From Clostridiales bacterium (GTDB taxonomy: Bacteria; Bacillota; Clostridia; Oscillospirales; Acutalibacteraceae): DNA of 64,000 nt. Below, piece after piece: positions 9,805-19,514 of this stretch. The number at the start of each line of letters is the position of its first letter. Position 1 is the stretch's first letter. Position numbers and translations under genes: made by a program. Location of the stretch: the NCBI GenBank assembly GCA_012839345.1, contig DUNN01000003.1:1-64000 (forward strand), in the 5' to 3' direction. The notes under the pieces were generated by a model, which did no database searches, was not told the origin of the DNA, and was given only the letters and a program-made list of their open reading frames with translations.

Positions 9805-11016
9805 ATGGCTAAAAAGAAACCGGAGGTCCCGAAGTATGGAACCATTACATTAAAAGGAATCCAGTATTACAGGACCCGGATTATGGACGCAGATGGTAAG
9901 CAGGTGAGTCTGTATGCCACCACTTGCGAGGAATTATATGAGAAGGAATTAGAGGCGCGACGGCAGGTGGAGGAGATCATCTTTCATCGGCAGCATCCAA
10001 CGGTGGCAGAGTATTGCGAAAAGTGGCTGTTGATGCAGTCGGCAAAAGTTTCTGCCTCTACGCTCAGAGGCTATACGAGGGACATGAAAAACTATATCAT
10101 CAAACCCTTGGGCGAGATGTATATGGAGGAAGTCACTTCTGATGATATTCGGTTGGCGCTTGTCCCGCTGTCGAAAAAGTCAGAGGGATTGTATAATAAG
10201 GTAAATATGCTCCTAAAATGTGTTTTTTACACGGCAGAGCGGAGCCAAATTCTCGAACACAATCCCTGTGAAGGAATATCGGGCAAAGGTGGAAAACCCG
10301 CAAAAAAGAGGGAAGCATTAACCGATCAGCAGGTAGCCGTGCTTCTGGATACAGTCAAAGGGCTTCCCCCCTACTTATTTATTATGCTTGGATTGTATTC
10401 CGGTTTGCGCCGGGAAGAAATCCTCGCGCTGCAATGGGACTGTGTATTTCTGGACGAGCCTACACCTTATCTATCGGTAAGGCGAGCATGGCGTACAGAG
10501 CATAACAGGCCCGTGGTTTCTACGGTGCTAAAGAGTAAAGCAGCCAAAAGGGATATTCCGATTCCCAAGTGCCTGGTGGATTGTCTGCGGGAAGCCAAGG
10601 AAACCTCTCGTTCGGACTATGTGATTGCAGACAGTAACGGAGAGCCGTTGGCTGCATCCCAGTTTCAGCGGGTATGGAAGTATGTAGTTGTCCGGTCCAC
10701 CAAGCCCCGCAACTATTATAAATATGTGAATGGGCAGAGCATCAAATACACAGTTACCCCAACGCTGGGCATGACGCAGAAAAATCAACCCAAAATCAGA
10801 TATACGTTGGACTTTGATGTAACCCCGCATCAGCTGCGACACACTTACATCACCAATCTTCTCTATGCTGGTGTTGATCCAAAGACCGTCCAATACCTTG
10901 CTGGACATGAAAACAGCAAAACAACTATGGACATCTACGCCAAGGTGAAATACAATAAACCAGAGGAGCTGTTTGGGGTGGTAAACGGTGCTTTCCATCA
11001 GGCTCCGGCTCAATGA
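9805..11016 (+). CDS. Tyrosine recombinase, intact integrase of the mobile element
   Basis: A 403-residue site-specific recombinase for insertion and excision of the element. The N-terminal arm-type binding domain includes the YGTITLKGIQYYRTR strip, the core-binding domain spans about residues 65-155, and the catalytic domain follows. Catalytic residues are visible: Arg202 (SGLRREE), His342-x-x-Arg345 (HQLRHT), His368 (LAGHEN) and Tyr378 (MDIYAK). The ATG at 9805 follows AAAGGAAG. It is a full-length paralogue of the broken integrase just upstream and is separated from it by a terminator, so it probably has its own expression. The family is Tn916-like. Confidence 0.92.
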   Translation: MAKKKPEVPKYGTITLKGIQYYRTRIMDADGKQVSLYATTCEELYEKELEARRQVEEIIFHRQHPTVAEYCEKWLLMQSAKVSASTLRGYTRDMKNYIIKPLGEMYMEEVTSDDIRLALVPLSKKSEGLYNKVNMLLKCVFYTAERSQILEHNPCEGISGKGGKPAKKREALTDQQVAVLLDTVKGLPPYLFIMLGLYSGLRREEILALQWDCVFLDEPTPYLSVRRAWRTEHNRPVVSTVLKSKAAKRDIPIPKCLVDCLREAKETSRSDYVIADSNGEPLAASQFQRVWKYVVVRSTKPRNYYKYVNGQSIKYTVTPTLGMTQKNQPKIRYTLDFDVTPHQLRHTYITNLLYAGVDPKTVQYLAGHENSKTTMDIYAKVKYNKPEELFGVVNGAFHQAPAQ

Positions 11017-14429: not shown

Positions 14430-14484
14430 AATACAAAAGATTACCGGGGCCGCCGCAGGGCAGTTCCTCATGGAGGATTTAAAA

Positions 14485-15135
14485 ATGTTGATTGCACCTT
14501 CCGTACTGGCATCCGATTTTTCACAGCTGGGAAACGAAGTAAAGCGGGTTGCCGCTGCAGGCGCCGACTGGATTCATCTGGATATTATGGACGGGCATTT
14601 TGTTCCGAATATTACGTTCGGTGCGCCGGTTGTTGCGTCCATCCGCAACCACACGGACAAGCTGTTTGATGTACACCTGATGTTGGACGAGCCGCTCCGC
14701 TATGTGCCGGACTTTTTAAAGGCGGGCGCGGACCTGATTACGTTTCATATCGAATCCCAGTCAGACCCGAAAAAGACGATTGCCGCCATTCGGGAAGGCG
14801 GCGCTAAGGCCGCACTTTCCGTCAAGCCCGGCACGCCGGTGGAGGCAGTTTATCCTTTTTTGGACGACCTGTATATGGTGCTGGTCATGACGGTGGAACC
14901 CGGGTTTGGCGGTCAGGCGTTTATGGAGGACATGATGCCGAAGGTCGAGGCGCTCAAAAAGAGGAAGCCGCAGCTGATGGTAGAAGTGGACGGCGGAATC
15001 GGCGTCCAGACAATCGGTGTGGCGGCGCGCGCGGGCGTGGATGTCTGTGTGGCGGGGACCAGTGTGTTCCGGTCGCCGGATGCACAACAAGCGATTGCAG
15101 AACTGAAGGCCGCGGCGCAAAACGCCCTGCGGTAA
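14485..15135 (+). CDS. rpe: Ribulose-phosphate 3-epimerase
   Basis: A 216-residue TIM-barrel enzyme interconverting ribulose-5-phosphate and xylulose-5-phosphate in the pentose phosphate pathway. Family hallmarks: IAPSVLASDF at the N-terminus, HLDIMDGHFVPNITFG (metal and catalytic residues), FDVHLM, VEPGFGGQ and the phosphate-binding VDGGIG and AGTSVF. I start at ATG 14485, 8 nt after TGGAGG; the in-frame ATG at 14470 overlaps that site. Length is normal. Confidence 0.95.
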   Translation: MLIAPSVLASDFSQLGNEVKRVAAAGADWIHLDIMDGHFVPNITFGAPVVASIRNHTDKLFDVHLMLDEPLRYVPDFLKAGADLITFHIESQSDPKKTIAAIREGGAKAALSVKPGTPVEAVYPFLDDLYMVLVMTVEPGFGGQAFMEDMMPKVEALKKRKPQLMVEVDGGIGVQTIGVAARAGVDVCVAGTSVFRSPDAQQAIAELKAAAQNALR

Positions 15136-15197: not shown

Positions 15198-16226
15198 GTG
15201 ATATTCAAACACGGCGTCATGTTGGAGCAGCACAGGGAAGAATCCCTGAAATATCCGATTCAGACGGTTCCGGCGCCAGAGGGATTTCCCCGGCCGAAGT
15301 ACTTTGCTCCGCCCAAGGGGAAACCCGGTACAGAGGCCATTCTTCAGGCCGCAGAGGCAGCGGGCATTGTGGATGAATTTGACGGTGTGCCCCTCAGCCA
15401 GAAGCTGAAGCGGATGCGGCGGCTGAAAATCAACACCGTTCTGGCCTGCTGCGCGGATGAGGACCCCTACATTTCCGGGGCTGCCGCCGTTTTGCGCGAA
15501 AACCCGGACGCGGTGATTTCCGGTTTGCTGCTTGCTGCGCGTGCCTGCGGCGCGAAGGAAAATAAGATCGTCGTGGAAACGAAGCGGGAAGCAAAGGAAA
15601 TCCGCAGGAAAAATCCGAATGCGGAATTGATTGTGTCGGGGACGCGCTATCCTGCGCGTGCCCTGTTGAAACGAAAACTTCAAGCGGCGGGGAAAAAGAC
15701 CGCATATGTGGGGGCCCAGGCCTGTATTGCGCTGGCTCAGGCGCTGGACGACGGAAAAATGCAGAGTGAAACCGTCATTACGGTAGCGGGCGATGCGGTG
15801 GAGACCCCCTCCAACCTGCGGGTGCGCATCGGCGTGCCGCTGCAGACCCTGTTTGATTTCTGCGGGGTGAGCGACCGGGCCCGCGCGGTTTATATTGGCT
15901 CTTCCATTGCGGGGAAAATGGTCACCGACCTGAGTACGCCGGTGACGGCGGATACCCGCTGCGTAATTGCAACCCTGCGCGTGCCGAAGCGGAAAGTCTA
16001 TTCCTGTGTGGGCTGCGGCCGTTGCAGCCGCGCATGTCCCCGAGGCATTGTACCGTGGCGCATTTTGCGGGAAGTCGGGCTGGAAAAACCCGATCCGCTG
16101 CGCATGCTGAATGCGCAGAAATGCATTCGCTGTGCTTCCTGCTCATTGGTGTGCCCTTCCGGTATCGATTTGGCGGGCGCGGTTTCTAAGGCTGCGGCCA
16201 TCCGAAAGAGCGGTGATTTTGATTGA
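15198..16226 (+). CDS. RnfC-like iron-sulfur protein lacking the FMN/NADH motif
   Basis: A 342-residue RnfC homologue, about 100 residues short at the N-terminus, where RnfC normally has a barrel-sandwich domain. Two 4Fe-4S motifs are intact: CVGCGRCSRACP (Cys270/273/276/280) and CIRCASCSLVCP (Cys309/312/315/319). The glycine-rich GxGGAGFPT loop that binds FMN/NADH in RnfC and NuoF is missing: after AAGIV the sequence reads DEFDGVPLSQKLK. The next motif NGAECEPY has become CCADEDPY. The SLBB-type segment (RIGVPLQTLFDFCG) is kept. The start is GTG 15198 after GGGGTG. The stop overlaps the TTG of the RnfD-like gene. It probably accepts or passes electrons through Fe-S clusters but is unlikely to oxidise NADH. 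Confidence 0.8.
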   Translation: MIFKHGVMLEQHREESLKYPIQTVPAPEGFPRPKYFAPPKGKPGTEAILQAAEAAGIVDEFDGVPLSQKLKRMRRLKINTVLACCADEDPYISGAAAVLRENPDAVISGLLLAARACGAKENKIVVETKREAKEIRRKNPNAELIVSGTRYPARALLKRKLQAAGKKTAYVGAQACIALAQALDDGKMQSETVITVAGDAVETPSNLRVRIGVPLQTLFDFCGVSDRARAVYIGSSIAGKMVTDLSTPVTADTRCVIATLRVPKRKVYSCVGCGRCSRACPRGIVPWRILREVGLEKPDPLRMLNAQKCIRCASCSLVCPSGIDLAGAVSKAAAIRKSGDFD

Positions 16227-17200
16227 ACCTAAAAAGAACAAACGTGCCGCTTATCCGGAGCGAGTCCACGGTGGCCTCTATGATGCGCGACGCGCTGTTT
16301 GCGCTGGTGCTGCTGCTGGTGCTGCCGGTGGTCCGCTATGGGTTCCGCCCGGCGGTCATGGCCGTGGTGACGGGGGCCGTGTGCGCTGTTTCGGAAGTGC
16401 TGTTTAACCTGATTCGAAAGCTGAACCGGGGGCTGAGCGACTGTTCCCCTATGGTAACCGGATTTATCATTGCGTTGATGATGCCGGTTAACGCGCCGCT
16501 CTGGCTTCCCTGTACAGCGGGCCTGTTCGCGATTCTGGTTGCAAAGGGGCCGTTCGGCTCCACCGGGCGCAACCCATTCAATCCGGCCGCGGCGGGAATC
16601 GCTTTTGTAACGGTCTGCTGGCCAAGCCTGGTGTTTTCCTATTGCGACCCCGAGCTGGTACGAAACCTGCCTTTGTTTGCGGATTGTTCCGTGCCGACGG
16701 CTGTTTCGCCCGACGCAGTGCTAAAAAGTGGGCTGAAGCCGCAGATTTTGCCGTTCGATATGCTTTGGGGCGATTTCCCGGGTCCGGTCGGCACCACAGC
16801 GGTGCTGGTGGTGGCGGCATGCGGACTGTATTTGTTTTTGAAGCGCACCGCCCGGTGGGAAATTACAGCATTCTTTCTGGCTGCGGCAGCTTTCATCGCT
16901 GCATTTTTTCCGCGCATCGCGTGCAGTGCAATGACTTCTGTAAAATATGAGCTGCTTTCCGGTTCTTTACTGTTTTGCTCGGTATTTCTGGTAACAGACC
17001 CTGTCACCGCCCCGCATACTACGGCCGGGCGGTGCATGTACGGCGCATTTGCGGGCGCCATGGTTATGGTGTTTCGGCGGTACGGCGCATATCAGCAGGG
17101 CGCCGTTTTCGCGGTGCTGATTGCCAACGCGCTGGCGCCGCTGATGGATGACCTTGTGTTCCGGGCAAGAGGATGGGGGAGTGAGCTTCGTGAAATATAA
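16223..17200 (+). CDS. RnfD-like membrane subunit with altered flavinylation site
   Basis: A 325-residue polytopic protein of the NqrB/RnfD family. The conserved FGSTGRNPFNPAAAG (111-125) is the family's loop between membrane helices. The D-x-x-T-x-A-T-P motif, in which the Thr receives covalent FMN from ApbE, is not present; the aligned stretch reads PTAVSPDAVLKSG (158-170), placing a Ser (162) at the acceptor and losing the Asp and Ala. Start TTG 16223 overlaps the RnfC-like stop (ATTGA). No rnfG follows, although rnfG normally lies between rnfD and rnfE. Confidence 0.8.
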   Translation: MNLKRTNVPLIRSESTVASMMRDALFALVLLLVLPVVRYGFRPAVMAVVTGAVCAVSEVLFNLIRKLNRGLSDCSPMVTGFIIALMMPVNAPLWLPCTAGLFAILVAKGPFGSTGRNPFNPAAAGIAFVTVCWPSLVFSYCDPELVRNLPLFADCSVPTAVSPDAVLKSGLKPQILPFDMLWGDFPGPVGTTAVLVVAACGLYLFLKRTARWEITAFFLAAAAFIAAFFPRIACSAMTSVKYELLSGSLLFCSVFLVTDPVTAPHTTAGRCMYGAFAGAMVMVFRRYGAYQQGAVFAVLIANALAPLMDDLVFRARGWGSELREI

Positions 17201-17828
17201 AGGCCTTTACCGGGGCACCACGAAAATATTTGTCAACGGATATTTTTATCGCAACCCCGTGCTGATTGCGGCGCTTGGGCTTTACCCAGTGGCGGCGGCG
17301 GGCTATAACCTGCGCAATGCGGTGGAGCTTTCTCTGCTGTTTTTGTTTCTTTCCCTGCCGGTGGGGTTAATTGCCTGCATGGTGGGCCAGATGATTCCCT
17401 ACTGGGCGCGCCCCGGCGTTATTCTTGCCGCGGCGGGTGTGTGCTGGCTGCCAGCCGCCTGGCTGACGGAGCGAGTGCTGCCCGGTTCTATTACGGCGCT
17501 CGGGATGTTCGGCGGGTTAATGGTCTGTAATTCCGTGATTTTGTCCCGTGCGACAGAATATGATGTGACGCACATTGCGCCCGCGGTTGTTGCCGACGCA
17601 GTGGGAAGCTCGGTTGGGTTTGCGCTGGTGATCTGCTTCTGCGGCATCGTGCGCGAGCTGTGGCTTAAGGGGAGCCTTTGGGGCGTGAACACAGGAGTTT
17701 ACGGCACCGGGGACGGAGGCATTTCGCTGCCGTTTTTCGGGTTTATCCTAGTGGGATTTTTGGCGGCATTCCTGCAGTGGATTAACCGCGTTCGGGGAGA
17801 CAAGCAGAAGAAGGGGATGCGTGAATGA
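17190..17828 (+). CDS. RnfE/NqrD-like membrane subunit without Fe-S cysteines
   Basis: A 212-residue, about six-helix protein. Homology to RnfE shows in FVNGYFYRNPVLIAALGLYP (usual ENPVF...LGLCP) and in GLMVCNSVILSRATEYD (usual VVNCIILGRAEAF). In RnfE/NqrD the Cys of each motif ligates the intramembrane iron-sulfur centre; here the first is Tyr32 and the second Ser115. A nearby Cys113 is two residues off register. The start is GTG 17190; GTG 17181, 6 nt after GAGGAT, is an alternative. It overlaps the end of the RnfD-like gene and overlaps the next gene by 4 nt, so the operon is tight. Confidence 0.78.
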   Translation: MKYKGLYRGTTKIFVNGYFYRNPVLIAALGLYPVAAAGYNLRNAVELSLLFLFLSLPVGLIACMVGQMIPYWARPGVILAAAGVCWLPAAWLTERVLPGSITALGMFGGLMVCNSVILSRATEYDVTHIAPAVVADAVGSSVGFALVICFCGIVRELWLKGSLWGVNTGVYGTGDGGISLPFFGFILVGFLAAFLQWINRVRGDKQKKGMRE

Positions 17829-18415
17829 ACGATTTCTTGCAGGTGCTGATGACCGCGCTGGCGGCGCTGACCGTGGAAAATGCTCTGTTTTCCGGGGGGA
17901 TTGGATTCGGAAAAATGCTTCGCGCCGCCCGCCGCCCACGGCAAATTCGCATGCATTCGCTGCTGGTCGCCTGGTTTTCGCTGATTTCCATTCTGCTTGG
18001 CTCGGTGCTGAACCCGGTCATTCAGGAAAACGAGGTTTTGCAGTTTATGCGGCCCGCCCTGTACGCGCTCTTCACCGCGGCGGCATATCTGCTGTTTGCG
18101 TTTCTGGTGAAAGCGTTCTTGCCGAAATTCCATATCAAGTACGGGGAGTTGCTTGCCCCGGCGGCGATCAATACGGTGGTGCTTGCCATGCCGTATGTGC
18201 AGAAAGCCTTTAAACTTTCACCGTTTCAGGCGGTGGGGTACGCGCTGGGAACCGGTGCTGCGTTTTACCTTGGTTCGCTGATTTTAGCGGGGGCCGCCCT
18301 GCACTGCAAGGATGAGGAGTGCCCCAAAGCCTTTGCAGGCTTGCCGTCCCTGCTGATTTACATTGGAATTTTATCACTCGCATTTGCAGGTTTTACGGGC
18401 GCAAAGCTGTTTTAA
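17825..18415 (+). CDS. RnfA/NqrE-like membrane subunit without Fe-S cysteines
   Basis: A 196-residue, six-helix protein. The C-terminal CPKAFAGLPSLLIYIGILSL and AFAGFTGAKLF closely match the RnfA end (P-x-x-F-x-GLP-x-x-L and AFMGFSGL). The first Fe-S motif (SRFLGICPFLG in RnfA) is SGGIGFGKMLR here, Cys replaced by Gly29; the second (TNCAILG) is INTVVLA, Cys replaced by Thr117. Start ATG 17825 overlaps the upstream stop (ATGA). It is the last gene of the cluster: rnfB, the ferredoxin-facing subunit, is absent and a strong terminator follows at 18421. Confidence 0.78.
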   Translation: MNDFLQVLMTALAALTVENALFSGGIGFGKMLRAARRPRQIRMHSLLVAWFSLISILLGSVLNPVIQENEVLQFMRPALYALFTAAAYLLFAFLVKAFLPKFHIKYGELLAPAAINTVVLAMPYVQKAFKLSPFQAVGYALGTGAAFYLGSLILAGAALHCKDEECPKAFAGLPSLLIYIGILSLAFAGFTGAKLF

Positions 18416-19055: not shown

Positions 19056-19514
19056 TTAATATTTGGCAGCCTTTACAAAGTCATCCACTTGGTTTTGATG
19101 GCCGGAATTTGCTTTGCCGTAAAGAAGGGTGTCGTTCATACGGATAATGGTATAATTCAGTTCCCCATTGACCACGGTGAATTTGTTATAGGAGGAAGAG
19201 TCCAGCGTGGTGGTTTTTGCGCCGGTTCCCTGGGAAACGTTTGCTTTCACGGAGGTGTAGGCAGTCTGTGCGTCGGACTCAGTTTTAAAAGTGATAAAGA
19301 TCAGCTGCGTCTGCGTTTTGGAGTCGTCAGCCTGCAGATACTTGACGACGGCAGTGTTCGTCGCGCTCTGTTCCGTTACGGTAAAACCCAGATCCTTTGC
19401 CTGCTTGGAAAACTCGTCTGCAGAAATCGGGGTGCGCGCGGAACAGCCCGCCAGGGAAAAGAACAGGACCATAGTCAGCAGAATAGAGAAAAACAGAATC
19501 CTTTTTTTCAACAA
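19056..19514 (-). CDS. Small lipoprotein
   Basis: A 152-residue exported lipoprotein: basic start (MLKKR), hydrophobic stretch, then lipobox LAGC (Cys about 24), so it should be lipid-anchored on the outer face of the membrane. The mature part is a small alpha/beta domain of unknown function (SADEFSKQAKDLGFTV and TFKTESDAQTAYTSVKA). GGAGG precedes two successive TTG codons, and either may be the start. No catalytic residues are recognised. Confidence 0.7.
   Translation of the reverse strand: MLKKRILFFSILLTMVLFFSLAGCSARTPISADEFSKQAKDLGFTVTEQSATNTAVVKYLQADDSKTQTQLIFITFKTESDAQTAYTSVKANVSQGTGAKTTTLDSSSYNKFTVVNGELNYTIIRMNDTLLYGKANSGHQNQVDDFVKAAKY

Follow-up and report, generated by a model that had tools for sequence, protein, structure and literature searches.

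An Rnf-related C-D-E-A operon without most redox-cofactor sites in Acutalibacteraceae

What does a set of Rnf genes do when most of the sites that hold its redox cofactors are gone? The question is raised by a four-gene operon at 15198–18415 of the window, a stretch of 64,000 nucleotides (positions 1 to 64,000 of contig DUNN01000003.1, assembly GCA_012839345.1) from a Clostridiales bacterium whose genus the NCBI taxonomy places in the Acutalibacteraceae, Eubacteriales, and whose order is called Oscillospirales in GTDB. A preliminary description had assigned the genes to rnfC, rnfD, rnfE and rnfA, with rnfG and rnfB missing, and had held that most of the cofactor sites were lost; both points were borne out. 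Judged by its sequences, the operon, here called CDEA, encodes an Rnf-related complex that fails most of the tests that define Rnf. It probably does a new job, because many related bacteria preserve the same stripped operon in intact form.

The operon and its cofactor sites

A check of the open reading frames (ORFs) upheld the coordinates of this Rnf-related C-D-E-A gene set.

15198–16226, + strand: C, RnfC-like iron-sulfur (Fe-S) protein; GTG start, 342 amino acids (aa); lacks the N-terminal domain and the flavin mononucleotide (FMN)/NADH loop
16223–17200, + strand: D, RnfD/NqrB-like membrane protein; TTG start, 325 aa; PF03116 at 256 bits; lacks the flavinylation motif
17190–17828, + strand: E, RnfE/NqrD-like membrane protein; PF02508 at 73 bits; start uncertain
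17825–18415, + strand: A, RnfA/NqrE-like membrane protein; 196 aa; PF02508 at 55 bits

Overlaps of 4 bases join C to D and E to A. The E gene could be read from ATG 17148 (226 aa) or from GTG 17190, which matches the residue numbers of the preliminary description. The window proteins belong to the right family, yet they fall under all four curated NCBIfam cut-offs (in brackets): 129 bits for rnfC (246), 191 for rnfD (207), 51 for rnfE (213) and 55 for rnfA (229). The top PDB matches of C, D, E and A are solved Rnf chains in every case, in agreement with the Pfam and NCBIfam assignments. The sites discussed below are as follows.

16005–16037, + strand: C, first 4Fe-4S motif, CVGCGRCSRAC (C270–C280)
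16122–16154, + strand: C, second 4Fe-4S motif, CIRCASCSLVC (C309–C319)
16580–16582, + strand: D, Asn120, aligned with riboflavin-site Asn123 of Acetobacterium woodii (9eri_D) and Asn124 of Clostridium tetanomorphum (7zc6_D); Asn in 29/39 reduced loci
16706–16708, + strand: D, Ser162, at the column of the flavinylated Thr/Ser by alignment; motif gone
16949–16951, + strand: D, Glu243; invariant in 39/39 reduced D, variable in canonical D
16997–16999, + strand: D, Asp259, aligned with riboflavin-site Asp249/Asp248; Asp in 28, Glu in 10 and Asn in 1 of 39
17283–17285, + strand: E, Tyr at the position of the first cluster cysteine (Y46 in the 226-aa ORF, Y32 from GTG 17190)
17409–17411, + strand: E, Arg88 (226-aa numbering), the residue that aligns with Arg67 in RnfE of A. 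woodii; retained in 34/38 reduced loci
17532–17534, + strand: E, Ser at the position of the second cluster cysteine (S129 or S115); the Asn just before it is kept in the window
17909–17911, + strand: A, Gly29 at the position of the first cluster cysteine, by alignment
18170–18175, + strand: A, Asn116 (invariant, 38/38), then Thr117 at the position of the second cluster cysteine, by alignment

Conservation was counted over 39 reduced loci of a single order – the window, nine loci of its genus, 20 regions and 11 later picks, less two that are canonical (L110 and L111). The 20 regions were chosen from the best D matches in 394 genomes of the order after D and E had been seen to lie close together or to score as reduced; the cysteines, the acceptor motif and B played no part in the selection of loci. 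Profiles for locus annotation were built from 19–20 canonical and 13–14 reduced loci. Three regions carry two handles each: L023 is identical with L096, L024 with L097 and L025 with L095. Because L096 is truncated within E and has no A, it was omitted from the A counts, from the count for the second cysteine of E and from the tree; for canonical L021, the D row is missing. L048–L050 and L053–L056 are short cuts and were left unclassified.

The replacement of four intramembrane cysteines in E and A, claimed in the preliminary description, is seen in alignments to canonical loci and to solved RnfA and RnfE chains: Tyr32 and Ser115 of E (GTG numbering) and Gly29 and Thr117 of A sit on the four cluster cysteines. 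Canonical loci keep the cysteine in 20/20 cases in each of the four columns. Reduced loci keep it in 3/39 (first) and 0/38 (second) cases in E, and in 0/38 and 11/38 in A. Among the 38 reduced loci with both E and A, 25 have none of the four cysteines, 12 have one and a single locus has two. Arg67 of RnfE, the counterpart of the widely kept Arg88, is described as required for growth of A. woodii (PMC11889175).

The D protein has VPTAVSP where the flavinylation motif D-x-x-T-x-A-T would stand. The serine previously placed at the acceptor position is confirmed as Ser162, and the Ala-[Thr/Ser] of the acceptor is found in 0/39 reduced D proteins vs 19/19 canonical ones. The preliminary description missed that D, by alignment, retains riboflavin-site residues. 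The Asn and Asp of this site are named in PMC11889175 and PMC9588780, and changing them in A. woodii abolishes activity and autotrophic growth (PMC11889175). The pair is intact in 26 of the 39 reduced loci, the window included. Conservation has also shifted, with 7 columns of D having switched residue and 17 being newly conserved, compared to 1 and 3 in E and 5 and 2 in A; by this column count, D is the subunit with the most gained constraint.

The C protein of the window keeps eight cysteines in two 4Fe-4S motifs. Both motifs are present in strict form in 22 of 26 reduced C proteins, and the other four (L081, L082, L087 and L103) retain the cysteines, as judged by eye. The stretch 'AGIVDEFDGVPLSQKL' occupies the position of the canonical GxGGAGFPT loop, the residues aligned with the loop being GIVDEFDGVPL. 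The strict GxGGAGFPT string was not found in any of the 26 reduced C proteins; it is not decisive alone, since it is also missing from canonical L110 and L111. Alignment of the window C begins only at residue 119, 134 or 144 of three solved RnfC chains, in line with the earlier report of Fe-S motifs without the loop and the N-terminal domain. Absence of that domain is a trait of the window and its genus; among more distant relatives with a C protein, L076, L081, L089 and L104 seem, by eye, to retain it.

Occurrence, selection and loss of C

Neither rnfG nor rnfB was found at a score of at least 25 bits in the fetched flanks of the 39 loci (most 4–7 kb, a few ending at a contig edge). The operon is present in three named records, with C identities of 57–59%: a Clostridiales metagenome-assembled genome (L023) and Caproiciproducens galactitolivorans strains YR-4 (L024) and BS-1 (L025). 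Ten of the 11 genomes of the window's genus have a reduced D; as read from scores, a canonical-scoring D occurs in nine, and eight carry the two types together. A profile built on 17 reduced A proteins (E 1e-42, 150–252 bits) placed a reduced A-like gene in 57 of 394 genomes and 24 of 169 genera of the order; this is a count by score, for which not all places were inspected, and it misses divergent members such as L089 and L104. The best match outside the order, in a class-wide sample of 391 genomes, scored 138 bits, near the 129 bits of canonical copies within the order, though a search by score could miss divergent, low-scoring reduced copies. All 21 loci inspected outside the order are canonical-scoring, with a B gene in 21/21 and a G gene in 20/20 where the stretch was covered. 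C-D-E-A without G and B, with the same sites missing, recurs across species in five family codes. Two of the unclassified short cuts, L049 and L055 (family code f7), represent a divergent Rnf type with weak PF02508 scores and an altered C loop; a gap of ca. 0.9 kb from D to E suggests an RnfG gene.

The reduced complex is under purifying selection in relatives of the window and is not decaying. Nei-Gojobori ratios of non-synonymous to synonymous change (dN/dS) were 0.057–0.191 in 23 comparisons of genes between paired loci (six pairs), computed on stop-to-stop frames and with dS near or above 1 in two of the pairs. These comparisons include D, E and A of L090 and L091, a pair that has no C. 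A tree of joined D-E-A sequences, made by a quick method, sets 38 reduced rows apart from 19 canonical rows with a support of 100; several reduced rows have long branches.

Two architectures were found among the 39 reduced loci – C-D-E-A in 26 and D-E-A without C in 13 – and C was lost in three changes on the joined tree. Each of the 13 genomes without C at the locus has one strong RnfC-type match elsewhere (open frames of 441–654 aa), and all other matches in this search with reduced C are weak, so there is no second C. The N-terminal arm of D was traced with a simple pattern that matched 19/26 loci with C vs 2/13 without; in RnfD this arm is reported to be buried in RnfC (PMC9588780). The riboflavin-site pair is likewise intact in 22/26 loci with C vs 4/13 without (Fisher p 0.0027, ignoring kinship). 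L093 and L105 have ca. 0.8 kb between D and E, which in L093 contains a CAP-domain protein inside the D-E-A cluster.

Canonical Rnf, related systems and neighbouring genes

The preliminary description had suggested a search of the whole genome for a separate complete rnf cluster and for apbE. No such cluster was found in the genome, which is 85.5% complete, and apbE is present in one copy. There is no second PF02508 pair besides that of the window, no match to an FMN_bind protein (including the NqrC type), and all RnfB matches are below the cut-off. In C. galactitolivorans BS-1, apbE is followed by one gene and then by rnfCDGEAB (L146:3493-10416). In the window's own genome a flanking gene similar to that of BS-1, a YbaK-like ORF (named by reading), and apbE (L145:3267-4346, contig C24, 45.7 kb) are followed by genes other than rnf. 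On this gene content, the species seems to have lost its canonical rnf, making it unlikely that CDEA borrows RnfB or RnfG. The absence is strong but not absolute: given the completeness of the genome, a cluster that has moved elsewhere is possible. On another contig, C21 (L172:1394-6532), six ORFs are in the order of an Ech-type hydrogenase and are followed by a HypF-like ORF; the large subunit was identified by Pfam, the rest by eye.

CDEA can be compared with several known systems. Like the Rnf complexes of C. tetanomorphum (7ZC6), A. woodii (9ERI) and Azotobacter vinelandii (8AHX), it has homologous C, D, E and A subunits encoded in the rnfCDGEA order, a C protein with two 4Fe-4S motifs and a D protein with the riboflavin-site residues. 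Unlike them, it has no RnfG or RnfB, its A and E lack the [2Fe-2S] ligands, its D has no motif for FMN attachment and its C has no FMN/NADH loop. The Na+-translocating NADH:quinone oxidoreductase (Na+-NQR, NqrABCDEF) has homologous membrane subunits in NqrB, D and E, and its NqrA is described as a C-type subunit that has lost all cofactors, whereas NqrB, D and E keep FMN, riboflavin and a [2Fe-2S] cluster (PMC12174285). CDEA differs further in that its C keeps Fe-S motifs and its genome has no NqrC-type match. The two-subunit Nqr/Rnf-like flavinylation systems set out in PMC8238504 and PMC10979944 also have an RnfD/NqrB homologue without its own flavinylation Thr and with a non-covalent flavin site, but there the D homologue is fused to a PF00175 NAD-binding domain and has an RnfG/NqrC partner. 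The window D has no PF00175, the genome has no FMN_bind match, and E and A are kept.

Isolate BL-6, a relative of C. galactitolivorans in the Acutalibacteraceae, is reported to have no more than four Rnf genes, together with an Ech complex, like the genome studied here (PMC7764203). These four genes are probably the same operon as that in the window. The available text of PMC7764203 reports only a failure to find further Rnf genes and gives no account of cofactor sites. No prior description of a cofactor-stripped C-D-E-A variant was found in the open-access literature, subscription journals being mostly uncovered. The published name 'rnfCDEA' was considered as an earlier description and rejected, as it refers to rnfCDEAB of thermophiles.

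The most persistent neighbour of the complex lies directly upstream.

14470–15135, + strand: rpe, ribulose-phosphate 3-epimerase; PF00834 at 248 bits; 62-base gap to C

A script found rpe upstream on the same strand and within ca. 1.1 kb in 36/39 loci, or 37/39 once the ORF start of L102 is allowed for; the two loci without this linkage, L093 and L105, are sisters on the tree. No rpe match was found in the wide-flanked canonical loci L110 and L111. In the window, no terminator-like site is listed for the gap from rpe to C, so a single transcript is plausible. The operons of YR-4 and BS-1 are located, as in the window, between rpe and an AbrB-rimP block, with nusA within reach in BS-1 only (genes named by eye). 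In Caproicibacterium lactatifermentans, an rpe that is upregulated on lactate has been listed among the predicted targets of Rex. Rex control was considered and rejected here: motif matches in the window number four, at chance level and none near rpe, and the published site is in no locus. Riboswitches and other RNA signals were absent from the window at the gathering threshold, and only tRNAs were found in the 20 loci scanned.

Other neighbours are less constant. Clustering found a MecA-like ORF on the opposite strand upstream of C or D in 10 loci (e.g. L084:9866-10474; Pfam-confirmed in the 2 tested), in eight of which it sits between rpe and the complex, and, in 12 loci, a putative glycosyl hydrolase of the DUF4015 type downstream of A (e.g. 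L092:4927-6090; Pfam-confirmed in the 3 tested); neither ORF adjoins the complex in the window. By eye, ORFs upstream of the complex in L084, L093 and L105 resemble a Na+-translocating decarboxylase beta subunit; L093 also has a biotin-carrier-like ORF there. In the window, a small lipoprotein-like ORF at 19056–19514 (− strand) looks by eye like a family that is downstream of the complex in 14 loci, although the script made no link and no Pfam family was above the cut-off. A phage-type integrase (9805–11016, + strand) ends ca. 3.5 kb upstream of rpe.

Proposed function and its alternatives

CDEA has no cluster ligands in A/E, no FMN site in D and no FMN/NADH loop in C, and neither RnfG nor RnfB goes with it; judged by sequence, the transmembrane electron route known from Rnf is missing. 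Na+ pumping coupled to ferredoxin:NAD+ oxidoreduction is predicted to be impossible for CDEA. Our preferred reading, to which we give a probability of roughly 0.5, is that the core of the pump has been reused without transmembrane electron transfer, probably as a D-centred transporter that is gated by C where C is present. Because three lineages dropped C and kept D-E-A, the job shared across the clade would lie in the D-E-A membrane core and would not be redox-driven. D, with its invariant Glu243 and a fold related to urea and ammonium transporters (PMC12174285, PMC9588780), would be the probable path for a small solute or cation, and A/E would be its conformational partner. In the complexes that have C, two clusters beside the riboflavin site of D could let the cytosolic redox state open or close the path. 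The complex may have originated from a second rnf copy; the tree gives no direction of change. The preliminary description had proposed repurposing, for example as a channel or transporter gated by an Fe-S protein. The reduced and conserved complex stands, gating is a reasonable guess, and the three losses of C argue for placing the shared function in D-E-A.

A fuller history can be offered more tentatively, as somewhat short of an even chance. The pump would have turned once, in the ancestry of the order, into a transporter free of redox cofactors: the A/E and D sites, RnfG and RnfB would have been lost first, C would have served for gating and would then have been dropped three times, and D-E-A would be tied to pentose-phosphate metabolism through rpe.

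Several observations weigh against a D-centred, C-gated transporter. The gating model leaves the rpe linkage unexplained. The motif cysteines in 26/26 C proteins and the riboflavin-site residues fit a redox enzyme equally well, and a kinship-aware test of the association between C and the riboflavin site had only 2–3 independent pairs and no power. The available sections of PMC11889175 report that A. woodii RnfD showed no Na+ path, a finding that weakens the case for D as a cation route, and other A/E residues named there are mostly lost in reduced loci (RnfA Thr110 kept in 3/38, RnfE Glu115 in 13/38). AlphaFold models of D and C from four-row alignments were unusable, with predicted local distance difference test (pLDDT) scores of 37.8 and 36.0. 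The dN/dS pairs exclude the window, whose nearest relative is too distant. The loci were picked by hand, partly for D adjoining E, and this selection contributes to the absence of G between the two.

The main rival is a residual redox enzyme, in which electrons would pass from a cytosolic donor through the clusters of C and the riboflavin of D to a membrane acceptor, much as the riboflavin of NqrB serves quinone, with A/E being structural. The intact Fe-S cysteines speak for it, as do the riboflavin-site Asn and Asp in most loci with C and the arm of D, whose distribution looks as if C still docks on D. Three clades nevertheless hold D-E-A without C, the riboflavin-site residues are changed in 9/13 of such loci, the FMN/NADH loop was not found in any of the 26 C proteins and no acceptor site was identified; we consider this relay unlikely, if the most serious of the rivals. 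More doubtful still is a sensor or regulatory scaffold that reads the state of ferredoxin or iron and acts on a partner protein. E. coli Rsx, which acts on SoxR, offers a comparison in kind. A membrane core that carries an Fe-S domain but offers no catalytic route would suit this role, and the MecA-like and DUF4015-like ORFs near other loci speak for it, but neither is beside the window complex, and D-E-A without C has no sensing part.

Two further explanations are improbable. An incomplete Rnf that relies on a canonical complex of its own cell for RnfB, RnfG and flavins would accord with the reduced and canonical-scoring D found together, by score, in 8/11 genomes of the genus, and with the one apbE left in the window's own genome. 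The acceptor motif and cluster ligands are gone whatever partners exist, however, and that genome has no FMN_bind match, no RnfB above the cut-off, no second A/E pair and no rnf beside apbE on its 45.7-kb contig; the borrowing of partner subunits, raised in the preliminary description, is very unlikely. The least probable explanation is an rnf duplicate on its way out. The loss of most cofactor sites and the long branches of several lineages speak for decay, but the frames are intact with 4-base overlaps, dN/dS is 0.06–0.19 in relatives, the same sites are missing and the same genes and neighbour recur across species of five family codes, and new columns have become conserved. The preliminary description was right to argue against simple decay.

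The stripped operon matters in two ways. A genome with the stripped operon in which no canonical Rnf is found could wrongly be credited with energy conservation by ferredoxin:NAD+ oxidoreduction; PMC7764203 counted 'four Rnf genes' in such a genome. The Na+ route in Rnf and Nqr is also disputed, with A/E set against D (PMC9588780 against PMC11889175). A lineage that keeps the membrane core under selection minus the electron path is a natural experiment on this dispute, and whatever D-E-A still transports would reveal the capacity of the core without redox chemistry.

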